Shown: one piece after another, positions 1,686 through 61,729 of the stretch | Layout of the letters: each line of letters begins with the position of its first letter | Numbering within the stretch: the first letter of the stretch is position 1 | Assembly: GCA_911728435.2 (NCBI GenBank) | Contig: OU452200.1 | Location: 23,823,715-23,887,714 of the forward strand | Direction: 5' to 3' | Source of the DNA: Apoderus coryli | Taxonomy: Eukaryota > Arthropoda > Insecta > Coleoptera > Attelabidae | Length of the DNA: 64,000 nucleotides | Position numbers and translations under genes: made by a program | The notes under the pieces: model-generated | Told to the model about the DNA's origin: nothing | The model's database searches: none | Seen by the model: the letters and a program-made list of their open reading frames with translations, nothing else

Positions 1686-1775
1686 AATTTGAAAAAATAG
1701 TCCATTCTTAAGTGGAGTTGTGTATTTATATGATGAAATAACAGTCTAATCTCCACAAAATAAATTTAATAGAAA

Positions 1776-1833
1776 TATTAACCATATCCAAACATTTTCG
1801 GAACTTCATACTAGTTCCATCATCAGTGGTAAT
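1776..1833 (-). ncRNA. Hammerhead ribozyme motif (element A, left arm)
   Basis: Read on the - strand: CCA, then core CTGATGA (1826-1820), stem II GGAACT/AGTTCC, then GAAA (1799-1796), then a short helix-III stretch and TGG closing stem I. The usual C after GAAA is A in this copy, so it may be weakened. The layout is type I with a very short helix III. Confidence 0.7.
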
Positions 1834-2267
1834 AATAAGACAAACTTAAAATATTATTCCAGAAAACTTCTATTGAGGTCACACTATGGAAAATGTTTTT
1901 GTTGTTTTTATGATTTAAAAATTAACATTGTTATACTATCCTATCTTTTCTTTCTTTTTATATATCATGATGTTTTTCGATTTTATATGTAATCGTCCAA
2001 CCACTTTAATAGAAATCAGAAAATAAGTACATGGGTTGACGTTTGTTAAGAATGTTATTTCTTAAATAGAAAAATAAGATTTTTATTAAAGTGGTTGGAC
2101 GATTACATACAAAATCGAAAAACATGATATATAAAAAGAAGGAAAAGATAGGATAGTTAACAGAACATAACATAACAATGATAATTTTTAAATCATAAAA
2201 GCAACAAAAACATTTTCCATAGGGTGACCTCAATAGAAGTTTTCTGGAATAATATTTTAAGTTTCTC

Positions 2268-2330
2268 TTAATATGACCACTGATGATGGAACTATTATGA
2301 AGTTCCGAAACATGTTTGGATATGGTTAAG
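2268..2330 (+). ncRNA. Hammerhead ribozyme motif (element A, right arm)
   Basis: Core CTGATGA (2280-2286), stem II GGAACT/AGTTCC, GAAAC (2307-2311), self-complementary ACATGT as helix III, then T before a predicted cleavage point, and TGG pairing with the preceding CCA. An outer stem CTTAA/TTAAG adds five pairs beyond an internal loop. All conserved hammerhead positions I can check are present. Confidence 0.8.
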
Positions 2331-2367
2331 ATTTCTATTAAATTTATTTTGTGGAGATTAGATATAA

Positions 2368-2379
2368 ATAGTTTAACAC
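2368..2379. repeat. 12-bp target-site duplication, right copy
   Basis: Exact copy of ATAGTTTAACAC found immediately left of element A. Confidence 0.8.
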
Positions 2380-4110: not shown

Positions 4111-5280
4111 CACTATACACCGACCTGATGTGTATTCTATCCACTTGCCAGTTATTTTTCAATCGTGTAATCAAAAAAAATGAACGCACAGCATGTTTTT
4201 CAAAATTACCCTATTTTTTTTGTGAAAAACGTAAGAATTGAGTAAACGGTTAGATAGAATTGTACAAAAAGTTCATTATAGGGTGTTCCATTTAAAAAAT
4301 ATATACCTTTGATATGCCCACACTTTTCTGGCACACCCGGTATATTTAAAACATTTTCCTTAGATGCTCCCGGTAGACTTACACACTCCAAGGTAAACAA
4401 ATTTTGCAATATTAATTTTGTTTGGCTATGAGAGACCCAGGGGAATGTACTGCCCGACCCGGTATATTTAATATAATATATACTATTAATAGAGCAGTTT
4501 CTTTTAAAGAAATGTATATACAAATTTGTATATAAAATTAACAAGTGATTGATTCTATATTTAGTAGATTATAATGAGTTTTCTATTGTCTTAATATCAA
4601 TGTCGGTGAATAACAGATAAAATGTAAATAGCTGTTAACAGATGGCATTACCAATAAGCTGGTTGGATGTTCCTGCAAAGGATTGCCAGAAAGTGAAACA
4701 GTACTGGTGAGGATATATGGACATAAAACCGAATTGCTCATAGATAGATGTGCAGAAACTAGGTAAGTAGGTACCTTTAGCTACCCTAACAACCAACTTG
4801 TCTACACAATACAAAATATGAAACGTTCTCAAATGTCGTAACAAAAAGCGATGTAGATGAATATGACCTATTTATGCATAAACCATCGAAGCAACAATCT
4901 TGTAAAAAATATTACTTACATTAACGCAATGTGTTGTACAAATTAATTCTTTAATTTGCAGAACACTTGCAACACATTCATTGAACTACTTTATTGGCTA
5001 ACGGAATTATATACCAAGCTTTTCCATAAATATAATATAAAATTACAATAATCAATATTATTATTGGTTTTTAGGTTTCTTCATAACTATGTACATAAAT
5101 ATAAAACTAAAGCCAGCCAAGTACCGATCTATTTCCCTTTAGACACTAACCTGATGGGGCATAGTGCGTGGTATTTATTTTTTCTAAAGTCTGTAGTTTC
5201 TGAGAAACTATTAGGCCTCTAATAAGATCCTTGTACATCATATGGCTAGCAATGGCCCGCCGCAACCAGTTCAGCACTAA
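4111..5280. other. Non-coding DNA
   Basis: No gene is recognised; small ORFs on - at 4206-4544 and 4635-4844 lack any family signature. CACCCGGTATATTTA-like motifs occur near 4330 and 4455 and may be ends of small transposons. Confidence 0.4.
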
Positions 5281-5955
5281 GCTCATATTAGGTTTATTCG
5301 GGTTTGGAAATTAGAACCGTTCTAGGACAGTTCTCGAATTGTATGAGAACTGCACCGAACTGGTTGCGCCTTAGATAAAATTCTCGGACCGTTCTATTAC
5401 TGTTCAAAATTGTGAAAAACCCGAACGCTTCATCTTCATCTATACCAAACAAAAATAGTATATAACCTAACTCTAATGTCCAAACAATAACATAAGATCG
5501 TGGATGGTCTTGACTTCTACTTGATGACAATTCATATTAAAGTTTTTGAAGAAAACAAGAAATGTTTTTAAATAAATTTTACAAAATATGGTATGTATAC
5601 ATCTGGCTTCTTCAGATAGCCACTGTGTTGGTGAAACAATTGTTATGTGTTGTATAATAAATTTTGTGAAAATATTTAAAAACATTGTTTTCTTCAAAAA
5701 GTTTAATAAAATAAGAGCCAAACATTTATTGTTGTACCTATTCATTTTCTTTTTGTTTTATTTGGATTTTTCATTCAAAATGAGTAGTGAACATAAATTA
5801 ACAAAGCATCAAAATTTCATGAAGTGTTTAATATAATTATCATTGTATTCTTTTAGATATACTAAATATATAATATAATATATAATATTGTTTTTTTTTA
5901 ATAAATGTAGTCCACCTTTTTAAATATAGATAAATTTAATTATAATATAACATTT

Positions 5956-5958
5956 TTA
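5956..5958. repeat. TTA target duplication (left)
   Basis: The three-base TTA just before the GGCCCGG terminus is repeated at 7200-7202, the hallmark target duplication of PIF/Harbinger elements. Confidence 0.75.
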
Positions 5959-6184
5959 GGCCCGGTTGTACAATGAGCGTTCACTCGAAGTTCACCTTGA
6001 TCTTCGGTTCAGCCGAGAAAATGCGTTGTACATTGTTGGTTTTGATGGTGACCTCTCGGTGAACTTGAACGCCCGAATTTGGTCGTTCAAGCTGAGTTCA
6101 ACATTTTTTTAACCTCACTCTTGAATGTTTTGATGTTATATTTATGCTAATATTTGTTTTTTCAAAATTTAATTTCCTACAAAA

Positions 6185-7947: not shown

Positions 7948-8315
7948 AATTGCTTATTACATAATGTAATAAGACATAAAGTTATGTTGGAAATTTGTTT
8001 CACACTACCATGCTTTCACCCGACGGGGCGTTTCGTTGATCTACAACTCATCAGTGGTGATCGGCAGGCAATGTGATTGAAATTTTCAATATTTACGAAG
8101 AGCTTATATTAGCTCGAGATACCGAATGCCAACAAGATGTATGTGGTGATATTTAGTGTGTGCAGACAATATGCGCGGTGAAACAAAGTTCACAACCGAT
8201 GGCCGGACAAGAAGTAACAACTCCATTAAATCCTATTGCCAACACTAGATACTCCCGAATTCCCTAGCGAGAGGCTTTATTTGTAAATTTCTTATTACGT
8301 AATGTAACAAGACTT
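7948..8315. repeat. Short element with near-palindromic direct repeats and a ribozyme
   Basis: A roughly 28-base sequence containing CTTATTACATAATGTAATAA at 7948-7975 recurs in direct orientation at 8288-8315 with a few changes. Between them is a hammerhead motif on the - strand. Direct repeats around a ribozyme recall retrozymes, but these are short and no primer site is visible. Confidence 0.45.
8010..8062 (-). ncRNA. Hammerhead ribozyme motif with GTC cleavage triplet
   Basis: On -: core CTGATGA (8054-8048), stem II GTTG/CAAC with a 5-nt loop, GAAAC (8034-8030), a mini helix III AC/GT with loop GCCCC, then C before the predicted cleavage point. Stem I is CACC/GGTG. GTC is the classical triplet. 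It differs in sequence from the element A-C ribozymes. Confidence 0.65.
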
Positions 8316-17800: not shown

Positions 17801-20800
17801 AGGTTTTAAGTTCCGAGAAATTAGAATCCGGCTCAAAGGACCAATGTTAGAGGGGTGATAGTAATCGGTGTACTACCTACTACCCCTGAAGATTACTTTG
17901 CTCTTAACAGGGATTGGTTGAGAACAATGGTTGTTGTTTTGCTCCCAACACGGAATGGTTGAGAACAGAGGTTGTTGTTACTATCCGGCTCAAAGACCAA
18001 TGTTCAGGGGGGTGATAGTAATCGGTATACTACCTACTACCCCAGAAGATTACTTTGTTCTCAACACGGATTGGTTGAGAACAGCGATTGTTTATAATTT
18101 TCACTCAACTCGTATTGTTTGGGTGAAGGAGCAGGATTGGGTAGCTGTTGTTTAGGATAAATCTGGGCACTAGTCAACCAGATGTAGGTAAGTCTTGTTT
18201 TAGGATTAACCTGGGCATTTGTCTACCAGATTTAAGTAGGTAATTTTGAAGATAAATCTCGTACTACTCATCCAGATGTAGGTTGTGAGAAACAATACAA
18301 GTTGATTGAATCTGAAATTTATTAATTTTAGGTTTTCTATTTATATTAAACAATTATCATTATTTTATTTTTACGATTATAAATCGATTGATCTTGCCTT
18401 TCTTAATGATTATCTCGGGTTTATTCAGTGGGAGGATATTTTGGCTGATCAGACAGTGGAGAGGATGGTGGAGATCTTTTATGGTGTGTTGTATGAGTCG
18501 CTTGATTTATTTGTACCTAAGAAAAAGTGTAGTTCAAGGAAATTTCCAAGGTGGTATTCTTCTGAATTTAAGCAAACAATTTTAGCTAAAAAGAGGGCTC
18601 ATAAGCGTTATAAATTATCGGGTTCGCGCGATGACTATGAGGATTTCTGTAGGCTTAGATCGGAATGTCAAAGGTTATCGCGATCTTGTTATAATGATTA
18701 TGTCCGTTCCATTGAGGGTGAGTTGTCTGATAATGTTGCGGCATTTTGGAGGTTTGTTAATTCAAAGAGGAATTCAGGTCAAATACCATTGCAAGTATCC
18801 TATAATTCCAGCATTAGCAACGATGGCCAAGAGTTGGTGGATCTATTCGCTGCCTACTTTGAGTCCGTCTATTCCCCTGGGGATGCTGATTCCTTGGGTG
18901 GCGCTTCTTGCTTGCCAGGGCAGCGGAATCGACTGGGCGATTATCACATAAACATTGCAGACATATTTGATGAGCTTAGTACGATGAATATCAATAAGGG
19001 GTCTGGTCCTGATGGTGTTGCACCAAGACTATTAAAGGGATGCAGTTTTGCACTGTCACTTTCCTAGTCGTTGGTAGGTTAGTTTTGTGACGCCAATCTT
19101 TAAATCTGGTAACAAGAGTGAGGTAGCTAATTATAGACCCATTTCTATCATCAATGCTATACCCAAGTTATTTGAGAAGATATTAACTAAACACTTAAAG
19201 CTCATTTTGGAACCTCTTGTTAACGACCAACAGTTCGGATTTGTTTCGCGAAGGTCAGCAGAGCTTAACCTGCTTGAGTATTCAAACGATTTGTGTCGTG
19301 CCATGGGAGAGGGATGCCAGGTACATTCGATCTACACCGATTTCTCCAAGGCCTTTGATAGGGTGAACCACCGGTTGCTGATGCGCAAGCTTCACTTGAC
19401 AGGCTTACCGGTTGGCATTTTGCGCTGGATACAGAGTTATTTGCAGGACAGATCGCAGATTGTGCGTGTGAATGAGTTCCAGTCAAGACCTATTCATGTT
19501 TCATCAGGTGTGCCCCAAGGTTCACATTTGGGACCACTCTTGTTTAATTTGTTTATTAATGGTATTGAACGATGTTTTCTTTATAGTAATTTTAAATTGT
19601 TTGCAGATGATCTTAAATTTTATCGTAAGATTGGCTGTGCGACGGACTGTTATTTGCTGCAGGATGATCTGATTAGACTTATGCATTGGTGTGACCGAAA
19701 TGAAATGGTGCCTAATGCTTCAAAGTGTTTCTATGTGGGTTTTCATCGTGCGAGGGAACCTTTCTTGTATGAGTACGTTATCTCCGACACTAGCTTGACT
19801 TGTAGGACTTTTGTGGTTGATCTTGGTGTTAGGATAGATCATTCCTTGACCTTTGTAGATCACATAAATTGCATGACAACTAAGGCATTGAAAATATTAG
19901 GATTTATTAAGCGTATTACTTCGGATTTCACAGATATAAGATCGATTAGACTGCTATACAATGCATTGGTCAGACCACATTTGGAATATGCATCGGCGGT
20001 TTGGAATCCGTCTTACGCAAGCCATGTGGACAGTATTGAGAGGGTTCAGCATAAATTTTTAAGATTTATGCATTTTAAGCTTGGACGTCCTCCACCGCCA
20101 GATTATACTTACGACTACTTTTCACTGTGCGATGATTTGAGATTGACCATTTTGGCTGAGCGGAGAAGCGTGAAGGATCTGATTGTTTTGTACAGGGTGT
20201 TGAATGGTTTAGTCTCCTCTTCGCACTTATTGTGCGAGATTACCTTTCGCGTTCCAGTGCGTCGGGTCAGAGGTACTCGGCTGTTTCATGAGCCGTTCTG
20301 TCGCAGAAATTGTACGTCTCATGGATGTATTCCACGAGTTTTGAGATCGGCTAATCGTCACCTGACTGTCGATCCGGATCTCGATTTTTTTTCACCTTAC
20401 GTTGAGTTTGTTAAGGGTTTGCGACAACGTCATCACATTCGCTAAGACATTTTGTTTTATTGTTATTAATGTGCTATTGTTTGATATTTCATTTTTATGT
20501 TCAGCTCTTCTTCAAGATATTTAAATTTTTGTAGCTGTATGCTTATTATTGAATTATTGTTTTTAAGGTTCTGTAATCTTGATGTAATTAAATTTATATT
20601 TGTGTTTTGTATAATGGACTTAAGTCCGTAAATGAATAAATAGAAATAAATAGAAATTATTTAAAGGTAAAGTGCTGACATTGTTGTGTTGTGATGTCCT
20701 AGTTCTGAAATTGTATGAGTTGCTGAATTGCACACATATATTATAATTTTATGATCACATGGTAGAGGAAAATAATTGCATGGTTGCTGTTGCTATAAAT

Positions 20801-23800
20801 AGAATGAATAAATAATATACATAGACATCGGTAAAACATAATTATTATTTAAGTATGTAAAATAAATATAAAAATGTCTTAATTGAGATTAGACAGTATC
20901 AATAATTATTAATGTTTATTAATAAATTTTTATTTTTAAGATCTTATTTTATTGCTACATAAAAATAATTATATAATATTATTTTAAAGAAGTAGTCCAT
21001 GATAAAGTGGAGTTGAATGTAATTCAGGAAATAAAAGTCTACCTCCACGAAATAACTTTAATAGATTTCTCTATAAATTATTTTTATAACCATACATGTT
21101 TCGAAGCACATGCTCCATCATCAGCTATCAATTAGTTGTACATGTCTTATATCAATAAGAAATACATTAATTCCATTAAGTGGAAATTTTTTTTTATATA
21201 CGTAAGTCAATTAATTTTCTATTCTAAAACTTAAATTGTTTAAATAGTGATGATAGCAACTCCAATTATTTAAACAATTTTAACAATTTAAGTTTTAGAA
21301 TAGAAAATTAATTGACTTACATATATAAAAAAAATTCCATTTAATGGAATTAATGTATTTCTCACAGATATAAGACATGTATGTAAGAAACCAAGAAATT
21401 TTCAATAACAACTTTATATTTTCCAATAAACAAAAATCATTTAATCAAATCAGAATATAATATCAATTATGGCATCCGTTCTATATGTCCACCCAAGAAT
21501 ACGTGTCCCTTTCTTTTTACCAAGAGTCCTTTCTTTCCTATATCATCTATAAATCTACTATAATATAAACACACAAAAGTAAAACATGTAACTCACTTAA
21601 TATTATGGAAAAGATAACACATAATTATTCCCAGCATATAAACTAAAAATATTTGTTAGACACGTCTGGTAATAAATTGTCTTTAAGAGTCACATGAACC
21701 GTTGACACGTTAAGGTATTCTTACATGTACAACTAATTGATAGCTTTCGTAAAATGACTAACCACTGATGATGGAGCATGTGCTCCGAAACATTTATGGT
21801 TATAAAAATAATTTATAGAGAAATCTATTAAAGTTATTTCGTGGAGGTAGACTTTTATTTCCTGAATTATATAATTTTTTTTTGAAATATTATTTTCTAG
21901 ATAAATGGATTTCTTTCTTGGGATGCGGATTCAATTAAAACAGATTGTAGGTCAAATCATTTTTGTTAGTTCATGTCAGTTTACAACGTTTCAGCAACGC
22001 AAAATTTCCTTTCTCAGGTACATTCTTAAAGACATATATTTACAGAACATAGAGACACCTATGTAAAATATGACAAAAACTGCACATAAATAAAAATTGT
22101 ATAAAACAGGCATAATATGTATATTTCCATAGTTTCCTATCATTCTTTACAAAATAAATATCGGGTTATGAAATCTTCACTTACCTAAATCGTCTATAAT
22201 ATTCACCACTATTAGTTTTACTTTCCCGCATAGGGAATCCAATCAAGAAAATTATTAATTATTAATCGTTGTAATAATAACTATTTGGTGTAAGTGCTGT
22301 TTTCCTGGACTGGGCATTTGAACGGAACAGGGGTGAGTGAAAAAGAATTTACCAGCAACTCATTTACTTTTTTTTTTTAATTTCAAAAATATAGAAATTA
22401 TTTCATACACAAATATGACGATTTTTAACACATACCTACTATAATATTATAACAATAACTGACTAGCCAAATAATGAAATAAAATTTAAAAATAGTATGA
22501 CACACCAAAAATTAGGATAACGCGCAAAAGTTACACTAAGTTTGATGTCAAGTTTCTCTTGAACCCGTCGCTAGATTTTGATGATTTTTAACGAATTGTA
22601 GCTTGATTCTTCTCAAATTCATCTCACCAATTTCCGTTTTTTCAACGATTCGTTTTTAAAGCATCACTTGCTGGCGGAATTAAAGTGATGAGGTTTGAAA
22701 CACCCTGTGAAGTGAATCACTCACAGTTGAAAACAGTTTTCAACACCAACATCTTCGTTTTGTATTCACTTTAAGTCCTCAATTCTGGCCCTCAATCGTC
22801 CTCGTAACATGTCCCAGGCATAGTAAGTACCATCTGTATTTTCATTAATAATTGAGATATCAAAGTTTAAATCGTCAAAGTTTTTCATAATTTTTTAAAA
22901 CTTCTCTCATTCATAAATGGTAAAGTAGGATATTTTTCATTAAAATTTCTATACGATCTGGATATTATTTGATGACACTGTCCATGTAAAAAAATAAATC
23001 CCTTAAACGACATTGGAGTACTTATTTACATTCATATTGGATGTTATTAATTACCAAAACACAACAATGCCTGACAGCTGTCATAGTAATTTTAAACAAT
23101 GGACATAGCCAGATATTCCAAATTAATTCGTTTTTCTGGGGAACGTTAAGGTTTGAAAGTAAACTCAATGAAGGTAACATTTGTTTTAACTAGTTGATCA
23201 TATATAACCACCCTGTAACTTTACGGGTCAATCGCTCTTATCCTATGGTTAAATTTGTTCAGAAGAAAAAATTATTTTTCATCCAAAACTGGTTTTTGGC
23301 AAATTTAAACTAATATCCCTAAGGCAAGAATAGCTCTCCATAGAGAAATATACATTTTGTCCGCTATGCCACGAAATTATTTTTCATTTTATTATATTTA
23401 CAGACACAAATTAATTGTATAATTATATATTTATGTTTTTTTTGTTAACAACCATCAGGGGCGTGCATTTCATTGCCGGTAAAACCGAAAAATGTATGAA
23501 ATTTAAAAAATTTGATTTCCTTATTTATGTTTCATAATATATGTTTCTAGAGTTTAATCTTTGATTAATTATGTTTATTTGTTAAAATTTTAGCATTTCG
23601 AAATCTGCTGTATTTAAAACGGCAGCATTGTGCAATTTATTTGTGTTTGTTCAAATTTCAGATTTCACTGCACGCCACTTTTATAATGACCATCTTCTAA
23701 AAAGATCCGCATGCTCAGATTTGGAAGTGATTTTGGGTCCAGTTTCACATATTAAATAATTGTATCAAGATATCTTGATTTTAACAAATTGCTTATGTTT

Positions 23801-27915: not shown

Positions 27916-28785
27916 TTCACAGTTTGCTGTATAAACGTATGTCCGCAAATGCTTCGTTTTATGAGTTACGGGGTGTTAAAGTTTTTCTTAAAAACTGAAA
28001 ATTTATTGATTGCTCTGAAACCGGTGGAGCTATGCAAAATGAAATCTAGTGGGTTTTAAGAGGTAGTTATTGCGCATTTTTTGGCATGCAACTAAGAATT
28101 TTATGTTCATCAGTGGCGCGCATACGGATAATGATCTCAATTTTTTTAAAGTAAACAATGGTACGTCACCGGAATTTTTCAAATTAAAAATTATTTTCGA
28201 ATTCCTCGTCAAATTGTAATAGAAAATCTGTCTAGCTTTTTTTATCGTAGGGGACATCGTTTTTGTGCAAAAGAATAAAACATTTTACCCTGTATTTTTC
28301 ATTTCTTTAATACATTATCAAGAACTATCTAATACCTACAATAAGAGAAAATAACACTAATAATAAAGAAACGATAATTTGACATTTCGTTGAAATATCC
28401 GTATTTAGCAGAATCTTAACAGTAGCCTACTAGCGTCGCCGCGAGATATTTTTTTTCACAAATGCCCCCTACCACGAAAAAGCAAGAGAGATTTTTTATT
28501 AAAAATTGAACGAGGAATTCCAAAATGATTTTTAATTTGAAAAATTCCAGTGGCGTATCATTTTTTTTCTTAAAAAAATTGAGATAATGATCATACGGGT
28601 AATGACCCGTATGCGCGCCTCTGATGAACATAAATTTCTTAATTGCATGTCAAAAAATGCGCCATAACTATATCTTAAACCCCACTAAATTTCATTTGCA
28701 TATCGCCACCGGTTTCAGAGCAATCAATAAATGTTCAGTTTTTAAGAAAAACACCCCGTATCTCAGAAAACGAAGCATTTGTCTA
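27916..28785. mobile_element. Foldback element with about 330-bp arms
   Basis: Left arm about 27940-28270 and right arm about 28440-28770 are imperfect complements. For example, GCGCGCATACGG(A)TAATGA faces its mirror, and CTGAAACCGGTGG faces CCACCGGTTTCAG. CGGGGTGTT motifs lie in both arms. No transposase is present, so it is non-autonomous. Its inside order recalls the neighbouring Tc1/mariner repeats, but the sequence differs. Confidence 0.65.
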
Positions 28786-33250: not shown

Positions 33251-33414
33251 TTGAAAGAAGTAATTGAAATTATTTTTTTTGTGTACCCAGGTACTTCTTT
33301 ATTTTTAAGGCCTTTAAAATATGTAGTAAATAGATTATGTACCTAATTATTATGTAAAGATATTTATCTTTTAGTATTGCATTTGCATTTAAACACAGCA
33401 AGATATAAAACAGT

Positions 33415-33548
33415 ATTATGTAAACCGTACCATCTACATACACATAGTAATGCATATCCCACCATGTAGAGGCCGAACAAACTCAATGTATAGGTAAAAC
33501 CAGTCGTAAAAATAGAAATAAAAATAGTGTAACCACAAAACGCTAGCT
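33415..33548 (-). repeat. Inverted partial copy of the ribozyme tandem unit
   Basis: Complement of the start of the unit at 33549 onward: it holds TACATACACATAGTAATGCA, GAGGCCGAACAAACTCAATG and GGTAAAACCAGTCGTAAAAA in reverse. It faces copy 1 head to head. Confidence 0.75.
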
Positions 33549-33709
33549 ATTTCTATTTTTACGACTGCTTTTACCTCTACATTGAGTTTGTTCGGCCTCT
33601 GTATGGTGGGATATGCATAACTATGTGTATGTAGATGGTACTGTTTACATATACTACTGTTGTATGTCCTGTTGTGGTTAAATTCAGGCCGATATTGATG
33701 ATGGGCAAC

Positions 33710-33775
33710 GAGTATGGCAGTCTGACGAGGTCATAATAAGAGCGAAACGAATTCGTCAGTATCTGTCGACCCATG
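33710..33775 (+). ncRNA. Hammerhead-like motif, tandem copy 1
   Basis: CTGACGA (33722-33728, a valid CUGANGA core), a 15-base stem-II region that pairs poorly, GAAAC (33744-33748), helix III ACGAATTCGT (fully self-complementary) and then C, giving a GTC cleavage triplet. The stem I match is partial in this copy. Stem II is the weak point. Confidence 0.5.
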
Positions 33776-34224
33776 CCTCAATCTGGTTCTACTTAATTAG
33801 ACTGGGGCCCTGCTAAATTTAACAAAATTCCTGGTGTAGGTAAAACCAGTAATTTTGTTCGCTTCGCCACGAAATTATTTTTCATTTATTGTATTTACCG
33901 ACATGAGATCCTTTTAATTTTTCATTATTTGGCATTGAAAATCGACGACCGAACGCTTGGAGACCACCGTCCGAGCGTTGCTGACACCCAAATATCTTGG
34001 GAGACGCTTGCAGAAGGATAAATAGTCTCCTGCTAGCGTTTTGTGTTTACAGAATTTTTATTTATTTTTATATTTATTTTACGACTGGTTTTACCTATAC
34101 ATTGAGTTTATTCGGCGTCTGTGTGGTGGGATATGCATTACTATCTGTATGTAGATGGTACTGATTACATATATCTACTGTTGTATATCTTGCTGTGCTT
34201 AAATGCAGGCCGATATTGATGATG

Positions 34225-34285
34225 AGCAACGACTATGGTACTCTGACGAGCGAAACGAATTCGTCAGTATCTGTCGACCCATGCC
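34225..34285 (+). ncRNA. Hammerhead-like motif with deleted stem II, tandem copy 2
   Basis: CTGACGA (34243-34249) is joined almost directly to GAAAC (34252-34256): 13 bases present in copy 1 are missing, bounded by GAG repeats. Stem I pairs TACT/AGTA and ATGG/CCAT. The ACGAATTCGTC helix III is intact. Likely inactive. Confidence 0.5.
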
Positions 34286-34449
34286 TCTGTCTGGTTCTAC
34301 TGAATTAGACTGGGGCTCTGCTAAATCAAACAAAATTTCTTGTTTAGGTAAAACCAGTAATTTTGTCCGCTTCGCCACGAAATTATTTTTCATTTATTAT
34401 ATTTACGGACATGAAATCCTTTTAATAAAAGTATCTTCAATTTTACAAG

Positions 34450-34883
34450 CCCCCCGCTGGTTTTATAGGTTAGATTAGGTTCGTTTCTCAATAACCGGAA
34501 ATAAATAGTAAAACTAAAACTTTCTACTGCTGCACGTGAAGAAACTTCGATGACTTTACAAAAACATCAGACAGAACATGTGTTGCTGTTTTAATGTTAC
34601 TTTTCTATACCTAACAATGAAGTATCACTAGGCACGTCTTGCTAAACTGCTTTTATCGCAAATTTATGAACAAATGAATTAATATTGCCAATAATAATGT
34701 TTGTAAAACCATTCAAAACTATTTATCCATCGTAATTTAAAACTTGCAAATGCAAAAGAAATATATTCTTTAATATGTATGTAGGTGTTTTCAGTACCTA
34801 CTTTCGAAGTATTTTAAGCACTTTAACAGTTCTCGAATTACTTTCCATCATATTTAAAATACTTTTAGTAAGTACCTCAAATA
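34450..34883. other. Non-coding DNA
   Basis: No feature is recognised up to the TA that flanks the mariner-type element. Confidence 0.35.
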
Positions 34884-34885
34884 TA

Positions 34886-35025
34886 CACCCTGTTTCATTA
34901 ATATTGCAAAAAAATTTAGGATGAGTTTCCTTGCTTAAAAATAAGAAAAAAAGTTCATGTGAACCTGTGTCCGAAAATGCTTTGTTTCGAAGATACAGGG
35001 TGTTAAAATTTTATTTATTTTTTTG
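34886..35025 (+). repeat. Left terminal inverted repeat
   Basis: Pairs with 37000-37139. It contains TTCATTAATATTGC, TTAGGATGAGTTTCC and, near the inner end, ATACAGGGTGTTAAAATTTT. Confidence 0.9.
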
Positions 35026-35714
35026 GTTTTTGTAAATAACTTTTGACATAATTGGAATATTTTAATAAAAATTAGTATGTAGGGGTTTTTTGACATGAGA
35101 AATTTAATTTTGATATTAGTTTGGCGTTTTCTTGTAGGTGGCGCCACCTACATATATTTTCACCTATTTAAAGAGTCATAACTTTTTTAATCGTACTTCT
35201 TTTTATTTCTAAGAATAAAAATGGATTTATCTATCAGTTTTTCCGCAAAACATGCATACTTGGTAGAAGTCGCTACGAGCAACCGTTCTCGAGGTATTTA
35301 GATTTGAAAAAGTCAATGCCTGTAATTTTAAAAGGTAATATTTATGTATTATAAATTTTCTTTTATCTTAGAAAAGTGTTTTAAGGTTAATTGTTATTTA
35401 TTGTAAGTAATAAATTTAAACGCATTTTGTCACAAAAGATTTAGCAATAGTTATTTGTCTTAAATTTTCGAAACATAATAATACAATAACGATTTTTCTG
35501 GAAAAGGCAAAAACGCAAAGGTTTTATTATTATCTTTTTTTATTTATCAATATTAATCATAAGGGCGTTTAAAAAAACGAACGTTTAACAAAAATGCTGT
35601 GAAACAGTCAGCTACTAAAATAATAATAACAATAACAACAATAACTGACATTAACAATTTTGTAAGAAAAATATTTAAGAAATGACAATCTCATTAAAAA
35701 GTCCTTTGTTTAAA

Positions 35715-36824
35715 TTACAAGAGTTGTTCAAAATGTGAACCCCCAACTGTAATACAAGCATCTATCCTACGACGCATTGATTGGCGAACGCGTTCAAATA
35801 TTCCGGGTGTGTGTCTAATTGTTTCACAGGATGCAATGATGCGGTTTCTTAATTCCTCCACAGTTTCTATTGGGGTCGTATAAACCAAATGTTTAAGGTG
35901 ACCCCAAAGGAAAAAATCCAATGAATTTAGGTCCGGAGACCTCGGGGGCCAGGGTTGTGCTCCTCCTCGACCGATCCAACGATTTGGATACACAGTATTT
36001 AAATATTCCCGCGCAACTAAACTGAAATGTGGAGGAGCGCCATCGTGTATGAAATACATTTGCAATCTCAATTGTAGTGGGACATCTTCTAAAAGTATGG
36101 GTAATACATCTTCAAGAAAACGACGATAAACTTCTCCAGTAAGCCTCGGTTGTAAAAAATATGGGCCTATCAAATGGTCTTCAATAATCCCCACCCAAAC
36201 GTTAAGTGAAAACTGGTGTTGATGACGGCCTTCTAAAATTGCATGTGGGTTTTCACCTGCCCATACATGATTGTTGTGGAAATTAATTATGGCTTCTCTG
36301 GAGAAATTTGCCTCATCGGTGAATAATATTCGTCCTAAAAAATGTGGATTTTCTCCAAGTTTTTGTTGCATCCATCGACAAAAATCTACTCTTAGGGGAA
36401 AATCTGTGGGTAAGAGTGCCTGTACACGCTGGATGTGATAAGGGTATAAGAGATTGTTCTTTAAAATTCTGAAAACTGTTGAAGCACTTACATTTACGTT
36501 TAAAGCACGATTCATATGTAAAGCAATCTTTCTGGTACTTGTTGTAGGAGTTTCTTCAATCTGATGAAGCACATGTTCTTCTACCTGTGGAGTTGCTGCT
36601 GTGCGGGGCCTCCCGTTTTCAGCGGTTTGTTTTTGAAAACTTCCATTTTCATGAAGACGTTGATGGAGACGAGAAAACATCGTATGATACGGGATGACAC
36701 GATTAGGGTATTTTTCTTCATAAAGACGTCTAGCTGCTAATGAATTACCGTTGGCCAGGCCATAAACGAAATGCATATCGCACATTTCACTATTTGTGTA
36801 ATTCATTTTGAAAAGCTTAACCAA
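35715..36824 (-). CDS. Intact DDE transposase, 369 aa
   Basis: Cuts and rejoins the element at its inverted repeats. The N-terminal region (about 7-65: TNSEMCDMHFVYGLANGNSL, NRVIPYHTMFSRLHQRL) matches the insect helix-turn-helix domain catalogued as DUF4817, followed by a second DNA-binding segment to about 130. The catalytic core has ILFTDEANF (Asp170), MYFIHDGAPPHFS (Asp261) and PPRSPDLNSLDFFLWG (Asp298), leaving 36 residues between the last two acids. No stop or frameshift interrupts it. The start ATG at 36824 gives the normal family length; an ATG six codons in is an alternative. Probably capable of activity, judged only from sequence. Confidence 0.9.
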   Translation of the reverse strand: MVKLFKMNYTNSEMCDMHFVYGLANGNSLAARRLYEEKYPNRVIPYHTMFSRLHQRLHENGSFQKQTAENGRPRTAATPQVEEHVLHQIEETPTTSTRKIALHMNRALNVNVSASTVFRILKNNLLYPYHIQRVQALLPTDFPLRVDFCRWMQQKLGENPHFLGRILFTDEANFSREAIINFHNNHVWAGENPHAILEGRHQHQFSLNVWVGIIEDHLIGPYFLQPRLTGEVYRRFLEDVLPILLEDVPLQLRLQMYFIHDGAPPHFSLVAREYLNTVYPNRWIGRGGAQPWPPRSPDLNSLDFFLWGHLKHLVYTTPIETVEELRNRIIASCETIRHTPGIFERVRQSMRRRIDACITVGGSHFEQLL

Positions 36825-36999
36825 CTTAATAATTAAATACTTGACTAATCAATGTCAATATGAGATGCATTAAAATGTTTTTTTTTTCAGTTGTCATTTG
36901 TTATTTGCTTTCTATTGCCATGACAAATCATAGCACACTCGATGAAAAAAGTGAACATTTACTTTTGCGCAATCAGTTACTGTGCGCTTTAAATAATTT

Positions 37000-37139
37000 A
37001 CACAAAATAAATAAAATTTTAACACCCTGTATCTTCGAAACAAAGCATTTTCGGACACAGGTTCACATGAACTTTTTTTCTTATTTTTAAGCAAGGAAAC
37101 TCATCCTAAATTTTTTTGCAATATTAATGAAACACCCTG
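37000..37139 (-). repeat. Right terminal inverted repeat
   Basis: Complement of the left repeat; outer end CACCCTG on + followed by TA. Confidence 0.9.
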
Positions 37140-37144
37140 TATAT

Positions 37145-38167: not shown

Positions 38168-41100
38168 CTGCACACGAAATAGAAAAGGTACTTAAAAAAC
38201 TTGGTAAGATTTGTTGTTGTTAAAGGGTAATGTTTTTTTCGTTGTTTTTCGAATTTAAAGTGTATCACATGCACACACTTTCTAAATAATATAAAAATAG
38301 AATCTTGGATATGATGTTTGAAATTCCAGGGCAATCATTATCAGCTCGAAGATAGTAAAAATTATATATAGCACATAATATCTTTATTGTTGTAGGAACC
38401 ATGGAAGTCATCAAAACAATGTACACAAATTAAAACGAATTATTAAGAATTAAGATATGATAATTGTTCATAAACAAGGGCAGAAAATGTTGACTACTGC
38501 GCTTTTTGTAACAACAATCTTTATACTGTTTTTTTATAAAATTTTCCTAGCGGGTTTTTTTCTGGTTTGAATGTGGCTAAATTAAATATTTCTGGATACT
38601 ATTTGATTTAAATACATAACAAAAGAAGATAATTTCAAAAAATAGTCCATTCAAGTGGAGTGGTAAATTTTTAGTGACAAAAAAAGTCAAATCTTCACTA
38701 AAATAACTTTAATAGAATCAATAGCTATTGTCCAAACGTGTTTCGGAACTGAATCTAGTTCCATCATCAGTGGCGAAACGAGAAACTTTACAAAATCAAT
38801 GTAGTGTATCCCTTAAGTTTCTACTGAGGTCACCTTTATGGAAAAAATATTAGTTATATTGTATTAATAAAGAAAAAATCAATTTAAATTAAGTAACACT
38901 AACATTATTTTTGTTATTTTTCATTTTCTTTTTGAAGATCAAGATTAAAGATTAATCAATTTGGAATTTTTATTCTTCAATTTACGTCGATAGAAATCGA
39001 AATATGAAAAAAAAATTCCATAAAGTTGACCTCACTAGAAATTTAAAGGATACACTACATTAATTTTGTAGTTTCTCTTTTCCCCACTGATGATGGAACT
39101 AGACTGAGTTACGAAACATGTTTGGCCAATAGATATGAATTTCTATTAAATTTATTTTGGTTGGAGATAAAAGATATATTAAAACTGTGTTTTTAAAATA
39201 ACACCTAATAAAAATATAGTTCTGGAATCTATTGAAACAAATCAGAATCAATTAGAGACGAATCTCGCAAAAATAAATTTAATAGAAATTCGTAAATTTT
39301 ATCAAAAAAAAAAAAAAAATGAATTAACTCATTCAATTTTCGATTTCTGTCAAATTAATTTAAAAAAAAAGTTAATAACCATCACGATCTACAAAAAGAA
39401 ATGTGAATAACAGAATAATGTTAGTTATTTAGATAATATTTAATTATACATACAACAAACAAATTTTTTCCATAAAGGTGACCTCGGTGGAAATTCCTAC
39501 AACAATGATTTTATTAGTTTATCTTTTTGCCACTGATGATGGAACTGGTGTAAGTTCCGAAACATGTTTGCATAATATTCATGAATTTCTATTAAATTTC
39601 TTTTTGTGGAATTCGACTTTTGTCATTGAAGAAGAATGAACTATTTAAAAAAAATCAGACACAATTTGCAAAGCATTTTCATATTACGAATATGAAGATG
39701 CTTGATTGCACATTGGAAATTAATCAAATTTTCAGATATATAGTTACATTTTTCTCTCTTTACGAATGGCATTTTTTGGTTTTTTGCGCTCAAAAAGATA
39801 GAAGTTTTTGTAATTGAGGAGAATTTTTATCACAAAAATTAATTACAGTTTTCAAGGGAATTTAATTGTTTCAATTTTAATTACCTGGATTGAAAATCGC
39901 CTCGAAAAATAATAAACTTGTGATTTTGTTTAATTTGTTCCTTATATGTAATATGAGCTTTTCACTACAGGGTGACTCGAATTCGATGTTCACTTATTTA
40001 TTGTCAACTATTAAATTATTTGTTGTTTGTTGAACTAGTCTATTATAAGTAAAAATGCATAGCTTCCCTTGGATATTTTTACAAAATTGTTAGAAATTCA
40101 GGATCTTAACTCCAAATTGGCGACGACGAAACGTCGTATTATAACAAAACGTGTTATTGATCGCTGGGTTCGTAATATAAAACGCTTTCAGATTCCAATC
40201 TTTAAAAAACCGGTCAATTTTAAAAAAACAAAGTTGATGGTTGATCACGGATGAAAGGTCCGATGCCAGTAATTTAAACATCATTGGATAGAGCGGACTC
40301 CACCCTGTACAAGGTGTCCCATTTTGGCTGTTTTTACGGTTATTTTTAAAGATAAAATCTTGCGGTTTTCGCGCATCTTTGTGGATTTTTTACGAGGAAA
40401 ACGATATCCTCTATCGCGGTCATGCATAAAATTTGACAAAATTTAATATAATTCATTTTTTGCAAAAATGGCTGATGCTATCACTTTTATACTTGGACCA
40501 GTTAAAACTACTGACAAAAGCTATAAAATAGTACCATCATTTTTGTCCCTGGATAGGGTTACAAGAAGGGTACTGTTTTATAGCCTTTAACAGTAGTTTT
40601 AACTGGTCCAACTATAAAAGTGATATTAGCGGGCATTTTTGCAAAAAATTTAATCTATTAAATTTGCCGCTAGTTCGAACTTTGTCAAATTTAGGTATGA
40701 CCGCCCCTAGATAGGGTTACGAGAAGAGTATTGTTTTATAGCTTTTGTCGGTAGCTTTAACGGGTCCAAGAATAAAAACGTCCCAATCAAATCTGTTTTC
40801 TGCTGTTTCGACAGTTTCTTCGAAGTTATCAAAATCGATAATGTTATTATATATTCTGTCAAATAAATTTCCCACATCGTTATTTTGACCTCCAACTTCA
40901 TTTTCGTCGTCACTTACATCGCCAATTGAATCTATATCCGACAATATTTAATCAATATATGTGAACAATTCTTCAGAACTTTTTTGTCTCAAAGTAACTT
41001 GGGCTATTTTTGCAAAAAAAAATATTCTATTAAACTTTCCGCTAGGTTGGAGTTTGCCAAATTTAACTATGAACGCCACTGGATAGAGTTACAATTTCTA

Positions 41101-53100: not shown

Positions 53101-56100
53101 AACAGATACAAAGAAAATCAAAATATATTTCCGAATCCGAAGATTTACAAATTATGCATAAAATCTATATTGTAAATCCTAATGATTCAATGTATTTTTT
53201 TATGTGAGGTGAGGGAGAGCAGGTGCACATCTTTTACTATTTTTTTTCCACTTTCCTTTGTTTTACAAGGTTTCTTTATGGTTTGGTGGCCACTGGCGTA
53301 TCTGAAATATTCTTTAGGCAATTAAAGGTAAAAAAAACCGGTTTTTCATTTTTCTTGTGTTTGTTAAATATGGGTACGTAACACATCCATTTGTTTTTGA
53401 ATATAATAAAAAAATTATCTGATTGCCATAATATATTACTTTCAAAGTTATACTTTTAAAAATGCAAAATAAAGAGTTGCAGAGGAAGCTTTAAAAAAAT
53501 AGAATACCGGAACGGCAAATAATAATTAATGAAATTGAGCGGACACGCATGGAGTTTAAGTTTAGGTTTATAGGGATTTTTTTTTTAAGTTCCATCCGGT
53601 TGAGAGTAATTATCCTCCCGTATAATTTGGCTCACAGGAAAGTGTTTACAAAAAACCAAAGTCTTTGACGGGTTAAAATTAGATCTAGCCATAGCCTGTA
53701 ACTATTTCTGTTTTAAATTGGGAAATAGAAAAACTGTTATTAGTTTGCCAGTTTGCTCTTGTATTAATGCGTTATTATAAAATTGGATTTACTCCAGGTA
53801 TACATCACGTTGAAGGCATATTAAAATTGACTAAGAACCAAGAATCAGAAATACAAAAATCAGGTATTTACCTAAAAATTCAACTGAATTTATTACTTAA
53901 TAATAATAATTCTTAAATATACATACAAACCCTCGTAGAAAAGACCAATCCACCGCTTAGTTAGGTAAGTATACGACAAACACTATGCTGTAGCTTATAC
54001 TACGTTATTTGATTAACAATCAGCTTATCTGGTGTTGTAACTTACAGAAATTTAGACGATATACGAGTATTTATACACATTTATCACTACTAGTTTTATA
54101 AAAAGAAGGCTGTTCGCGACCCAAAAATAGAACCAATTAGTATCCCTATAGGAATCCCTCAATTTTAACCACCGTCAAAGTGTCCAACAAATTACTTTAT
54201 TTTATTAACTAACATTTTAATCCGTATTGTAACTTACACAAAATTTAGACGATATATTTATATGCACTTAACTAATTGTTATTGTTATGATTGTTATCGT
54301 ATTTTTTATGTCATGTATTTGTCAGAACTTATTTAAATAAGTATTATTATTGAAAATGAGTGATTTTGAATGTGAATCTCTTGATGAAGCATGTGATGTT
54401 GGAATAGCCGCTATAATTCCAGAGAACGGTATGAATATCTTATAAATGTTCATACCTAATGCCGTGTAATATACAATTTTAAAAATCAAAATAATGACGT
54501 CAGCATAAATAGGCAATGACATACCGTCGTGAGTTTACTTACCGTTCTCTGAACGGTAAGTGAGTTACTTACCGTCGTGTTTGGATTGTCAGCCAGTAAA
54601 TGTCACTAGCTGTCATAAAGACAGACATGGTAAACAATCAAAAAAGGTCGGTCGTACAAAAAATCACATTTTTTTCTTATAAAGAAGTCTTTAGTTATCA
54701 TTTAGCAGGCGTTTTCTCATTAAATAAGGTCTCCTTTTTCCGATACGTACGACATTTTCTGATTTATTCATACAGGGTGGTCAAAAAATTATACTGAAAA
54801 CGATGTTATAAAAACAGTCGAAAGTCAGTTTTCTCAAATGTGACAGGTATATTTTTATAATTTTATCTCACGTATCATTAAAAATTAAATAAACTTTCTA
54901 ATAGGTTACTGATTTCGAAAATGCATAGTTTTCGAAATATCGACAATATAAATTTTTGAGCATTTTGACTATTTTCGTATATTACTTTGACTAGCTGCAG
55001 GCCCAAAAGTTAATTGTTGGTAATCAGTCGTAATTAATCAGTCATTTTGAAAGGTAAATTGCTGAAAAACCTTATTATTTTATGGTACACTAAATTAATT
55101 AGTCAAAGTAATATACGAGAATAGTGAAAATGCTCCAAAATGTTAGATTGCCGATATTTCAAAAACTATGCATTTTCGAAATCAGTACCCTGTTAGAAAG
55201 TTTCTTTAATTTTTAATGATAAGTAAGATAAAGTTATAAAAATATACCTGTTCCATTTGAAAAAACTGACTTTCGACTGTTTTTATAATATCGTTTTCAG
55301 TATAATTTTTTGGCCACCCTGTATGAATAAATTAGAAAATGTCGTACGTATCGGAAAAAGGAGACCTTATTTAATAAGAAAACGCCTGCAAAATGATTAC
55401 TAAAGACTTCTTTATAAGAACAAAATTGAGATTATTATTGATCCCTAAAATGTCAGTTTTGACATAAATCTTGATATACGTCAAAAACGGCTCGATTTAG
55501 GTATATTATATGATACATGAAACATCTCTAGAATCTTATATGGAATCCAAAAATTTCATAATATATAGTGTGTTCCATTTAAAATAACAAAGTCATTATC
55601 AACTTCCGGTTGGTATTATGATATTTGAATAGACCATATTCGGTAATACATATATCAAAATTTTCCAAATTCAATTCAAAGTAGTATCAAAATATTTTAA
55701 TAGGCCGTCACCATAGGACACCCTGTATGTAAAAATGGAAGAAAATAAGTATGCATTTATTGTAAGACAAACTTAAATTATTGTCGAAAGCGAATTAAAT
55801 TTATTATTATTTCAATATTTGTATAAAAATTTAAGGTAATTAATAGAGCTAAATTTTCACATATTGAATTAGAAAAGCCGGAAATATCGATGTTGGATTT
55901 ACAATAACTGTATAGTATCCTGTTCCTCCCAAGTTCGCAAGTTTGTATGTTTAACCGATTGCGTTTGTGCGCACTGATTTTTCTTTAGAACTTCAAAAAA
56001 TGTTAATTACTAATAAATGATTGATGAGTATGATGGAATGATAAATATAAATTGAATTACTGCACTCTCATAGAGTTCACCCAGCAAGTTACGGGCGTTC

Positions 56101-59100
56101 TTTTAGCTTTTTCATTGACATTATCTCCCTTGAGATGAGCTGGTAATAGTTCATTGAGTGACAGAGCATTGTGTTTAATCCTGTAACAATATACATATGT
56201 TATGATAAAAAAAATTGTGTAAAATTCTAATTTCTAAAAACCTAAAAATACATCGACAAGAGATATTTTCATTAATTTCATAAACGGTTGCTTAATCCCG
56301 GTTCAACAAAACTTTAAATACTTTATACTCGGAATATTCAAGATTCGGGCATATTTTAAAAAACATAACGGTAGAAACCTATGAAAAAGTTATGAACCAA
56401 GGTCGATCACACTGTTTAAATACAGTCCAACCCTCTATATAGTGAAAGACCAAAATTTCGACCGAAATTGCACTATAGAGAGCTTTTCACTATATAAAGA
56501 AAAATCAACAAGCAAAAAAAAAATCCCAAAATTTAATTATAAAAGATTTTATTAAACATTTGAAAGTTTAAATACATAGCATGTACATAATCTACGTACA
56601 CATTACATAAGAATATAGTAATTTGTGTAGTATTGAGAAATTGCTAAATAACATACATACATTATTATGTACTAGGAAAAATAATCAGTTATTTTCTTTT
56701 GCACATTACTTTTGAAAAACAATTGTTGCTCAACAAATTTCTCGCATTTATTCAAATGCATAAAGATTTGATTACGTACCCTTTCCTGGCCCCTGAGAGT
56801 AGTTCGCACAATGTCAAATGCATTTCTTATTTCATTTTCACTAAATTTAGCAGGACACTTCTTCATGATCGCCTATACTTTTTATATCGTCAATTATGTC
56901 TTGGTCAGTGGGGAGATCTGTCCGGCCAACATCATTGTCGATGTCTAAGAATAAATCTTCAAGTGAAAAATTTGCATCAAGGGTAGCATTTTTTTGTTGA
57001 ATACCCCATTGTTTTTTTAAGGTAGCAAGATCGATTTCGTCTTCTTCCTTCCAATGATGATTTTTCTGAGGGAAACCTGCTTTAGAAAAGAAGTTTTTGA
57101 TCGTTTTCTGAGAAACATTTTCACTCCATACTTTAACGACTTCGGTTATACAGTCTGTAACGAAGTTACTTTCTTTTTTTAATCCCGACCAGCCAACAGC
57201 CGTACAGCAATCAACCGTCCAACAGCAAGGGTAGCGTACGAACGGATGAAATTAAACACCTGGACTAAGCCTTAGGCCCTCTTTTCGTCGAATTAAAAAC
57301 TCGACCCTGGAATTACTATCTCCACTAGAGTTACCTGGTGTCCGTGGAGCATACCACGTTAATAAACTGGCGCCCGAGGAATAAGGCGCCGAAAAACTCG
57401 AACACGCCAACTAGTAACGACCGCCACTTGCAACAATCGTTACAAGTCTTTAAGGGTAATCAATTTTTGGACTGGAAGGTTGTTATCAATCGCATTAACA
57501 ATTTTGTGAACAATTCTGTTTCAGTAAGATGTTTTATGTTTTTTATAATACCCTGGTCCATAGGTTGCAATTTGGGGGTCATGTTTGGTGGAAAAAAGGT
57601 CAAATCAATATTCGTTAATTTTTGACTTACACTAACTGGATGTGGAGGATAATAGTCTATAAACATCACAATCTTTTGCTTTTGGCTTTTCATTTTCGTG
57701 TCCAGTTCTTTAATCCATCTTTCGAAAATCTCAGAAGTCATCCATGCCTTTTTATAATTGGCGTAATTTAACTCCGTTTAAATAACCCTTCACTAGCTTA
57801 AAAATTAACGCAGTTAAATTCTTTAGCAAATTGTAGAGCCTTTTGCTTTATTAAATTTCCCGATATTGCATTGGTACGTATTGATGCGTACGTGTCACTT
57901 GAAACCATCGTAAAACTGTTTCATTTACATCCTCGTAAGAACACACCCGTACCCGTTTTCGACTGCTTGGAACATTAGTTTTCTTTATTATAGTTTCGCG
58001 AGTTTTTACTATCAGAGACTCACAAACACCGAATTTTGCAGCAACATCAATTTTTTGCAGCCTTTATGAACTTTCTCCAAAACTTTAATTTTCTCAGCTA
58101 AAGTGGAACACACACGCTTGGACATCTTACTTGATTCTTAAATAAAAACCAACTGAACCTAAATTTGCGATTTACTAGGCCTCGTCTATAAAATGGAATT
58201 CCTTAGGTGTCTCACAGAAATCTACCTGCTTTATTGTCTACCATTAGGCGTTATGAACGCGTTAAGAACATTTTCAAAAGAATGCGATATAAAAATGTAA
58301 ATGGGAAACCCGAAATGGCCAAGATCTCAATAAATGCATACACATTTATACATAAAAGTCCAGTAAAAATTTTTAAAGATTTTAAAGATTCACTATATGC
58401 AGGGCTTTTTACATTAAATTTCATTAACATATTCTAGGTCTTAAAAAAATTGCACTGTAAAGAATTTTTTCACTATATAGAATTTCACTATAAACAGTGT
58501 CGACCGTTCTTATATTAAAAATTATTTCTCTTTGGGAAATAGATATGTACTTTTGCAGGGTATCTCCGTTATTTTTATAGATAGAAAGTTTCGGTTTTCG
58601 CCACTTGTGCTACTTTTTCGTATAACTAAAGATTCTGTTAACAAAATTTTCATAGCCCTTTTAATTGTTAACATACAGGGCTAAATTGAAAAGTTGCATT
58701 ATCAGGCACCTGTCAGATAACTTTCGAAAATGGGAAAATGTTTCATATATAACTTTTCCCCGTAGAAGACAATTCCGCCTTCGAAATTAGTATACAGTGT
58801 TGTCAGGTCAAAAATTTATCGGACCCAACTTAATTTTTAGACTATAAAATTTGTCTTCTTTTACCTTTTCAAAAATATAATCTTTAACTTTTTCACAGAA
58901 ACACGCAAATAAATGAGAATTTTCTAAAATTAAATGTTCTCTTTGTTGTATGTTATAGGACGGGGGTGAACAAATGATCCATGCTCCACTAAATTTGCTT
59001 TTAAATGAGAAAATATCTCAAAAAACGGTTGCCTTCTTTCTCGATATCTAACAAGCACAAACTTATAATTATAATAGAGACTCTCATAGCCATAATACTA

Positions 59101-61110: not shown

Positions 61111-61270
61111 ATATTTTTTTAAGGTACTTAGTTTGTTACGTTAGTTTATTGGAAATAATGAAAATCATACAATTATAATAATAATCAATCTTCGGTTAAT
61201 TGTGTCCTTAAGCAATAATTTCTCGAAACATGAATTGTCGGTATAGGACAAAAATAAACAAAAGTCTAAA

Positions 61271-61320
61271 CTTTAGCCAACGTTTCGTTTATTATACATA
61301 AACTTCTTCAGGGCTAAAAC
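61271..61320 (-). ncRNA. Hammerhead ribozyme motif in the Penelope-like element tail
   Basis: On -: stem I TTTAGCC/GGCTAAA (seven pairs), core CTGAAGA (61311-61305), stem II GTTTAT/ATAAAC with a five-base loop, GAAAC (61286-61282) and a self-complementary ACGT helix III, then T before the cleavage point. Core and stems are complete. Hammerheads in terminal repeats are a known feature of Penelope-like elements. Confidence 0.8.
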
Positions 61321-61729
61321 AAAATACCATGACAACAAAAGCGTACAAGAAAATTACAAAGTAATACCTTGTCTAGTCGTTCATATTATATAAAACAATA
61401 AAGTCATTTTCAACCTAATTGAATACACATAACAAATAATTTGATCAACACAATACGAATAAATAAATAACTTTATCACATTTCAGTGGTAGAAAATTCT
61501 TAATGATATACATCGTCGTTGTTCTTAATTTAAGTAGCCTTATAAAAAAATTACAACTAAAAAACATAAATATATCCTATCTCGGATTATACTTGTATAC
61601 AGTCAGGCCAAATTTCAGTGTACATTATTTTATATTACCATTCATTCACAAACTCAAATGAACAGCAATCACAGTGCTTCTTCCCAACACAACTTCCCTG
61701 ATCTGTTAATAGTATTCAATTTTAACATT

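Follow-up and report, generated by a model that had tools for sequence, protein, structure and literature searches.

A hammerhead-bearing palindrome as a probable head-to-head pair of Penelope-like terminal units with a tail at one end

An insertion of 682 bp in AT-rich, eukaryotic DNA, here called element A, consists largely of two inverted arms, each of which carries a hammerhead-like motif facing outward. The question that this locus raises is whether such a palindrome moves as a unit, or whether it is the product of an integration event in which two copies of something else were laid down head to head. An earlier note on this DNA had taken the first view, proposing a self-folding transcript that is cut by its own terminal ribozyme and moved by the machinery of another element. 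We examined the anatomy of element A, its relatives in the surrounding 64-kb stretch (the window, meaning the whole of the DNA analysed) and its relatives in the genome. The features of element A are as follows.

1674–1685: left copy of the target-site duplication, ATAGTTTAACAC, an exact 12-nt match to 2368–2379
1686–2367: element A, made up of a one-sided extension, left arm, centre and right arm
1686–1744, minus strand: one-sided tail (q1 to about q37, in left-arm coordinates) and the adjoining 22 nt
1745–2017, RNA sense on the minus strand: left arm, a pseudo-LTR-like unit, 259/270 against the right arm
1788–1829, minus strand: minimal hammerhead motif of the left arm, from descriptor match and alignment, without C after GAAA
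2018–2077: palindrome centre, 60 nt
2078–2362, RNA sense on the plus strand: right arm, a pseudo-LTR-like unit like that of the left arm, without tail
2277–2319, plus strand: minimal hammerhead motif of the right arm, from descriptor match and folding
2363–2370, plus strand: no-tail end TATAAATA, matching q38–45 of the left arm and overlapping the target duplication by 3 nt
2368–2379: right copy of the target-site duplication, ATAGTTTAACAC

Aligned without counting gaps, the two arms agree at 259 of 270 positions (95.9%). The inverted repeat of about 680 bp described earlier is thus real as far as the arms go, but the palindrome is shorter than the full 682 bp, as the first 37–59 bp (1686–1744) are one-sided. 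The 22 nt adjoining the tail are also present at the no-tail end of other copies, and the left ends of two further loci in the window, B and C, match 1686–1744. That element A is a genuine insertion, as had been claimed, is borne out by the target duplication and by a neighbouring repeat unit (1417–1456) that is uninterrupted; the insertion sits inside a repeat unit. A direct repeat of 12 nt was reached by only 3 of 2000 random pairs of window stretches. The exact match of 1674–1685 with 2368–2379 stands, but the duplication may be 9–12 bp long: to judge from the sequence, 14 nt have probably been deleted at the right end, which now finishes with TATAAATA. Within and beside the centre, 2006–2052 is a continuation of the arm in four other copies (L012, L024, L040 and L046) and is matched up to 2065 in a fifth (L010), the rest of the centre being unmatched; the centre probably represents a longer left cDNA that extends beyond the end of the other cDNA. 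Among the reading frames of the window that were examined, none within element A is PLE-like (Penelope-like element) coding sequence.

Both arms contain the core CTGATGA-T-[stem II]-GAAA in outward orientation, at 2280 (+) and 1826 (−). In the right arm, the motif comprises stem I (CCA/TGG), CTGATGA, an extra T, stem II (GGAACT/AGTTCC), GAAAC, AT and GTT. Each arm has a stem II of 5–6 pairs and a GTT followed by a TGG that can pair with the CCA before the core, and cleavage is predicted between 1791 and 1790 in the left arm and between 2316 and 2317 in the right arm. The earlier description of CTGATGA, a stem and GAAA(C) in both arms holds except for the C, which the left arm lacks. Helix III, in the usual hammerhead numbering, would presumably be reduced to about one C-G pair and a two-base loop.

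We searched the window with a descriptor that requires the core, GAAA and U-H, together with at least 5 pairs in stem II and at least 3 in stem I. Of its five matches, element A accounts for two and loci B and C for one apiece; the fifth, and the only one outside these loci, lies in the 3' region of a coding PLE. By comparison, 200 dinucleotide shuffles of the window gave a mean of 0.005 matches and a maximum of 1. Among the diverged elements compared, the core positions are identical (11/11 and 5–6/6), while only 6–7 of 13–15 positions agree in the spacer just behind. Covariation is slight: one pair has changed on both sides, 94.6% of cells are paired, and a single such pair was reached in 275 of 500 shuffles. 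In both arms of locus C, one pair of stem II has changed from A-U to G-C.

With Rfam, no model reached its gathering score anywhere in the window, and a search of 1600–2450 up to E = 10 turned up no hammerhead; the type I model (RF00163) did not match element A. In E-value mode, element A gave mainly matches to microRNA precursors, below their cut-offs, as expected of a palindrome. The earlier note had named scores below threshold as an outcome that would speak against its reading, and to the letter this outcome was obtained. We regard it as uninformative, however, because the PLE hammerheads in the literature are described as lacking helix III (PMC6155905, available in part), and the models also failed to match the right-arm site of locus C and the hammerhead-like site of the coding PLE; they may simply not cover the type without helix III. 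A separate type I hammerhead-like site at 8016–8060 (minus strand), outside the element A family, reached 18.8 bits with RF00163 (gathering 34). Scanned with the ribozyme pattern, public collections yielded a single exact match. It lies in a viral contig (L001) whose surroundings, when read, held no element-like sequence; prokaryote contigs gave no match.

In predicted folds, stem II forms with a probability of 0.92–0.96 in the right arm alone and of 0.64–0.67 in the left arm with its tail. In the whole palindromic RNA (−384 kcal/mol), its pairing probability is 0.0 and the stem pairs with the opposite arm, so that the ribozyme is predicted to be sequestered in a full-length palindromic transcript. 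The prediction refers to equilibrium; as the complementary arm is transcribed first, an alternative fold would have little time to form in the whole-element RNA.

Two further loci of the family and the coding PLE lie in the same window.

20975–20985 and 21886–21896: candidate target duplication of locus C, AATATTATTTT, the right copy 13 nt past the arm end
20986–21872: locus C, two inverted arms with a 31-bp one-sided tail
21124 (−) and 21765 (+): hammerhead cores of locus C
about 21382–21722: MITE-like sequence (about 340 bp) that interrupts the right arm of locus C and is bounded by short terminal inverted repeats, TGTAAGAA..TTCTTACA
38631–39650, right limit approximate: locus B, older, with unequal arms
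38770 (−), 39087 (+, stem II broken) and 39533 (+): hammerhead cores of locus B
61215–64000: coding PLE of another family, with reverse transcriptase (RT) and GIY-YIG frames (RVT_1, GIY-YIG), head to head with a copy running beyond the window
61311, minus strand: hammerhead-like site in the 3' region of the coding PLE

The candidate duplication of locus C has a length, 11 nt, that 5 of 2000 random pairs reach; the flanks of locus B, when examined, gave no clear target duplication. Arm-to-arm likeness within an element is 0.96, 0.98 and 0.88, compared with 0.78–0.85 between elements. The arms of one element being more alike than those of different elements, the palindromes probably arose separately, although later gene conversion between arms may be an alternative source of this likeness. 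The whole insertion of the coding PLE could be followed in an extended locus (L048, 316–3618), where its arms, of about 1.25 kb, are over 99% identical and meet head to head at a local palindrome. A hammerhead-like CTGAAGA..GAAACGTTGGC lies near both of its ends, and a possible 7-bp duplication flanks it. The two ends of this element do not differ by a tail, and the one-tail rule described below is accordingly shown for the family of element A only.

To ask how copies of the family begin and end, we searched the genome (428 Mb, 129 contigs) with element A. From 1819 first candidates 40 were scored, of which element A itself and one hit (C10:9936531, with match values equal to those at the place of L045) were left out. 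The remaining 38 loci (L010–L047) were chosen by similarity to element A and are not a random sample. The left arm was mapped on them by BLAST, with q1 as the tail end, q38–43 as the no-tail end and the cut site at about q105. Eleven loci (L014, L015, L019, L023, L024, L025, L029, L036, L038, L042 and L044) are single-armed in the sense that no second arm was found at E 1e-6, a setting that a very short second arm could escape; in three (L040, L043 and L045) an outer end was unreadable. The other 24 have two arms with both ends readable, and all 24 are head to head. Many related copies in the genome have the two-armed layout of element A, in line with the genome-wide search that the earlier note had suggested.

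The outer ends of the 68 arm segments in these 38 loci fall into two groups, 30 at q1–5 and 33 at q34–43, with the remaining five at q74, 93, 146, 200 and 284. Not one lies at q95–115, around the cut site; 62 of the 68 segments run through it, and insertions end about 65 or 105 nt beyond it. Exactly one tail of about 37 nt is present in 23 of the 24 two-armed loci, on the left in 11 and on the right in 12, a count with a probability of 1.2e-7 if ends were independent at one half. The lone exception, L035 (G000:C25:13966676-13968145), has a tail at both ends but no target duplication, and its two flanks form an inverted repeat; it looks like an insertion that was later duplicated in inverted orientation together with part of its flank. 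Flanking direct repeats of at least 8 bp accompany 21 of the 23 one-tail loci, compared with 60 of 552 swapped-flank pairs, and the mean flanking repeat over all 24 two-armed loci is 11.1 bp. In the loci and in the controls alike, each flank window extends 6 nt into the element, and in L017 the repeat lies 6 nt off the left end.

Inner ends are far less regular. Those of the two arms of one locus differ by 0–300 nt over 23 loci, reaching q46 and q346 in L034 (in L046, the inner end q195 was taken from the segment beside the outer end, and the left arm continues past q367). The space between arms is −34 to +15 nt in 17 of 23 loci, 38–69 nt in four and about 510 nt in two. Inner (5') ends cluster at q325–346 (20 of 68 segments), which may mark the RNA 5' end and possibly a transcription start; other copies extend further, into a common upstream sequence. 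The ribozyme is covered by 56 arm segments, of which 48 keep CTGATGA..GAAA, in all 48 followed by C, and 39 retain the core with a stem II of at least 5 and a stem I of at least 3 pairs. A short left arm (B2) that seemed to end at the cut site was set aside as one case beside a T-run, only 1 of 68 inner ends lying at q100–110.

A search with the shared upstream sequence led to two loci, L053 and L059. In L059, a remnant of a PLE reverse transcriptase (tblastn, E 5e-7, 4292–4435) is followed on the same strand by a remnant of the connector and GIY-YIG region (E 2.7e-7, 4602–5152, with the PLE relative P0001 as query), in order and with broken frames. Downstream of both, again on the same strand, lies an arm with tail and hammerhead (5681–6097) that is 77% identical to element A. 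L059 is therefore a relative, not the source copy, of element A, in which RT and GIY-YIG coding is, to judge by these remnants, attached to a related terminal unit. The assignment rests on the tblastn matches obtained with the RT piece and PLE relatives, as the other tests were weak or negative: the GIY-YIG piece of the window PLE matched L059 at E 0.12 and gave no meaningful BLASTP match to the frame of L053, and the L053 pieces had no Pfam match to RT or GIY-YIG. These PLE remnants beside a related arm, together with the lack of PLE-like coding in element A, agree with the retroelement origin, without proteins of its own, that had been proposed for it.

We compared element A with known systems as these are described in the accessible parts of the cited papers. 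PLEs are reported with inverted pseudo-LTRs (pLTRs), a one-sided tail, 8–10-bp target duplications and palindromic junctions (PMC3846280, PMC8969392), and with hammerheads lacking helix III (PMC6155905, PMC7761336). Element A shares with them the inverted pseudo-LTRs with one tail, the short target duplication and the minimal hammerhead, in sequence and in stems. The statement that no named family has such a two-ended design is thus not supported. Pen2a_Av of Adineta vaga (PMC3846280) comes close, with head-to-head pLTRs, a 31-bp tail at one of them, 8–10-bp duplications and palindromic junctions, and bdelloid Penelopes in the same source include non-coding sequence between solo pLTRs with target duplications; by contrast, no reading frame separates the units of element A, whose arms stop within or close to the 5' part of the pLTR. 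Poseidon PAc of Anolis carolinensis (PMC11167929) has hammerhead stems I and II with a start codon at stem II, internal starts of reverse transcription, a tail between the start sites and AT-rich targets; in the arms of element A, CTGATGATGG likewise puts an ATG at stem II. PAc, in contrast to element A, is a coding element that was studied in vitro.

Retrozymes offer a different set of likenesses. Those of metazoans (PMC7229834, PMC7761336; both in part) are small, non-coding, non-LTR and hammerhead-bearing, as is element A, but they are arranged in tandem, have more complete type I hammerheads and form circular RNA, whereas element A is inverted and nearly without helix III. Plant retrozymes (PMC4918200, PMC7761336; likewise) are non-autonomous retroelements with a hammerhead in each terminal repeat, but have direct LTRs, a type III hammerhead and a 4-bp target duplication.

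Based on these results, we suggest that element A probably consists of two non-coding terminal units (solo pseudo-LTRs) of a GIY-YIG PLE, both truncated at the 5' end and inserted head to head in one event. The reading draws on the anatomy, the target duplication, the minimal motif, the one-tail rule, the unequal inner truncation and the PLE-linked related arm, each observed directly. In such an event, the PLE protein would cut both DNA strands about 9–13 bp apart, and each 3' end would act as the primer for a cDNA that starts within the RNA. The two would use different start sites, separated by about 37 nt, which would leave one end with a tail and the other without. Both cDNAs, made from one kind of RNA, would pass the ribozyme sequence toward the RNA 5' end, and their ends would be joined head to head, in many cases directly or over an overlap of a few bases. 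As 62 of the 68 arm segments run through the cut site, the template would be mostly RNA uncut there; the ribozyme might act in PLE transcripts that have one arm. Asymmetric ends and unequal arms together point to two separate starts rather than to copying back.

Work on PAc supports several of these steps in the part of PMC11167929 available: the protein of the PLE acts on both strands in vitro, cutting and extending each, reverse transcription starts internally at two adjacent sites with the tail being the stretch between them, and ribozyme mutants are without effect on insertion. In that account, no difference in start site was seen between the strands, and the model proposed here needs further rules to explain one of each. 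Against two starts stand the ends of the coding PLE in the window, which show no tail difference, the 11 of 38 single-armed and three unreadable loci, and the wider spaces between arms, about 510 bp in two of 23 loci and 38–69 nt in four.

The alternative already in the literature is self-priming, in which a palindrome arises when a single cDNA, or else an antisense template, snaps back on itself and is copied. PMC3846280 (in the part available) proposed it for bdelloid Penelopes from palindromes at inverted junctions, invoking an antisense template, and the coding PLE of the window also has its junction at a local palindrome. A copied-back strand should, however, end like its template, and exactly one tail is found in 23 of 24 loci; moreover, the arms can differ greatly in length, as in L034. 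Self-priming is hence in our view unlikely for this family, and the data on element A favour two starts on two strands. Much the same evidence bears on the reading of the earlier note, according to which the palindrome is the mobile unit and its folded transcript is cut by a terminal ribozyme and moved in trans. The outward motif at both ends and the lack of PLE-like coding in element A would fit. No outer end among 68 lies at q95–115, however, and folding of the full transcript predicts a sequestered ribozyme, with a stem II probability of 0.0; both results speak against self-cutting of this kind. Nor does the palindrome look like the replicating unit, as inner ends and centres differ between loci, arms pair by element and 11 of 38 loci are one-armed. 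We regard this reading as highly improbable.

A metazoan retrozyme, a small tandem unit with a type I hammerhead that spreads as circular RNA, would also be non-coding and hammerhead-bearing, with a unit of about 300 nt like that of element A, and PLEs have been named as likely helpers of retrozymes (PMC7761336, in part). Yet the arms are inverted, not tandem, in all 24 two-armed loci with readable ends, which lie off the cut sites; the homology between the 5' part of the unit and the part beyond the ribozyme is weak; and a decayed coding PLE, L059, carries a related arm. This makes a retrozyme very unlikely. A tandem-unit homology between the inner arm part and the sequence beyond the ribozyme had been considered in its own right and was discarded, as shuffles reached its score in 4 of 300 cases at best and mostly in many more, and in 16 of 500 at best in a second comparison. 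Hardly credible, finally, is a foldback or MITE-type DNA transposon with a hammerhead-like sequence by chance in its inverted repeats: it would account for the long inverted repeats and for flanking duplications of about this size, but the one-sided tail, the variable inner truncation, the single-armed copies and a descriptor count far above shuffles speak against it.

Returning to the head-to-head pair of PLE terminal units, a stricter version can be put forward. Integration in the family of element A could be obligatorily asymmetric, with the two subunits of the integrating complex using two different start sites on the RNA, about 37 nt apart, one per DNA strand; every complete two-armed insertion would then carry one tail, palindromes would be the normal products of joined cDNAs, and hammerhead cutting would play no part in forming insertion ends. 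We offer this version tentatively, giving it somewhat less than an even chance. Its interest lies in the strict one-tail rule, since PLE insertions that combine inverted pLTRs and minimal hammerheads with an optional tail are already known. Neither the rule nor a two-strand account of palindromes was found in the literature surveyed, which was covered in part and included PMC11167929, PMC3846280, PMC7761336, PMC7229834, PMC6155905, PMC12910113 and PMC8969392. The main text of PMC11167929, as far as available, does not treat inverted copies, 'inverted' occurring once (for a DNA end block) and 'palindrom' being absent. In their available parts, PMC11167929, PMC7761336 and PMC3846280 treat PLE integration, its frequent inversion and the role of the hammerhead as unresolved. 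In a compact non-coding family like this one, with clean flanking duplications and a strict one-tail rule, both ends of every event are preserved, so that end counts from any genome that contains such copies can test the two-strand priming model directly.

The remainder of the window is likewise rich in repeats, its reading frames matching Penelope-like, LINE-type and DDE transposon proteins as well as a choline kinase. Further inverted or nested repeats, without a match to the hammerhead descriptor, lie at 27946–28781, 33384–34426, 54662–55433 and 58746–59584. An element at 18306–20445 contains a LINE-type reverse transcriptase frame (19078–20445; RVT_1, E 1e-28), directly preceded by a frame without Pfam match (18306–19067). 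A DNA transposon at 34881–37144 has 141-bp terminal inverted repeats that are 98% alike and a stop-free frame of 377 codons with HTH and weak DDE_3 matches.
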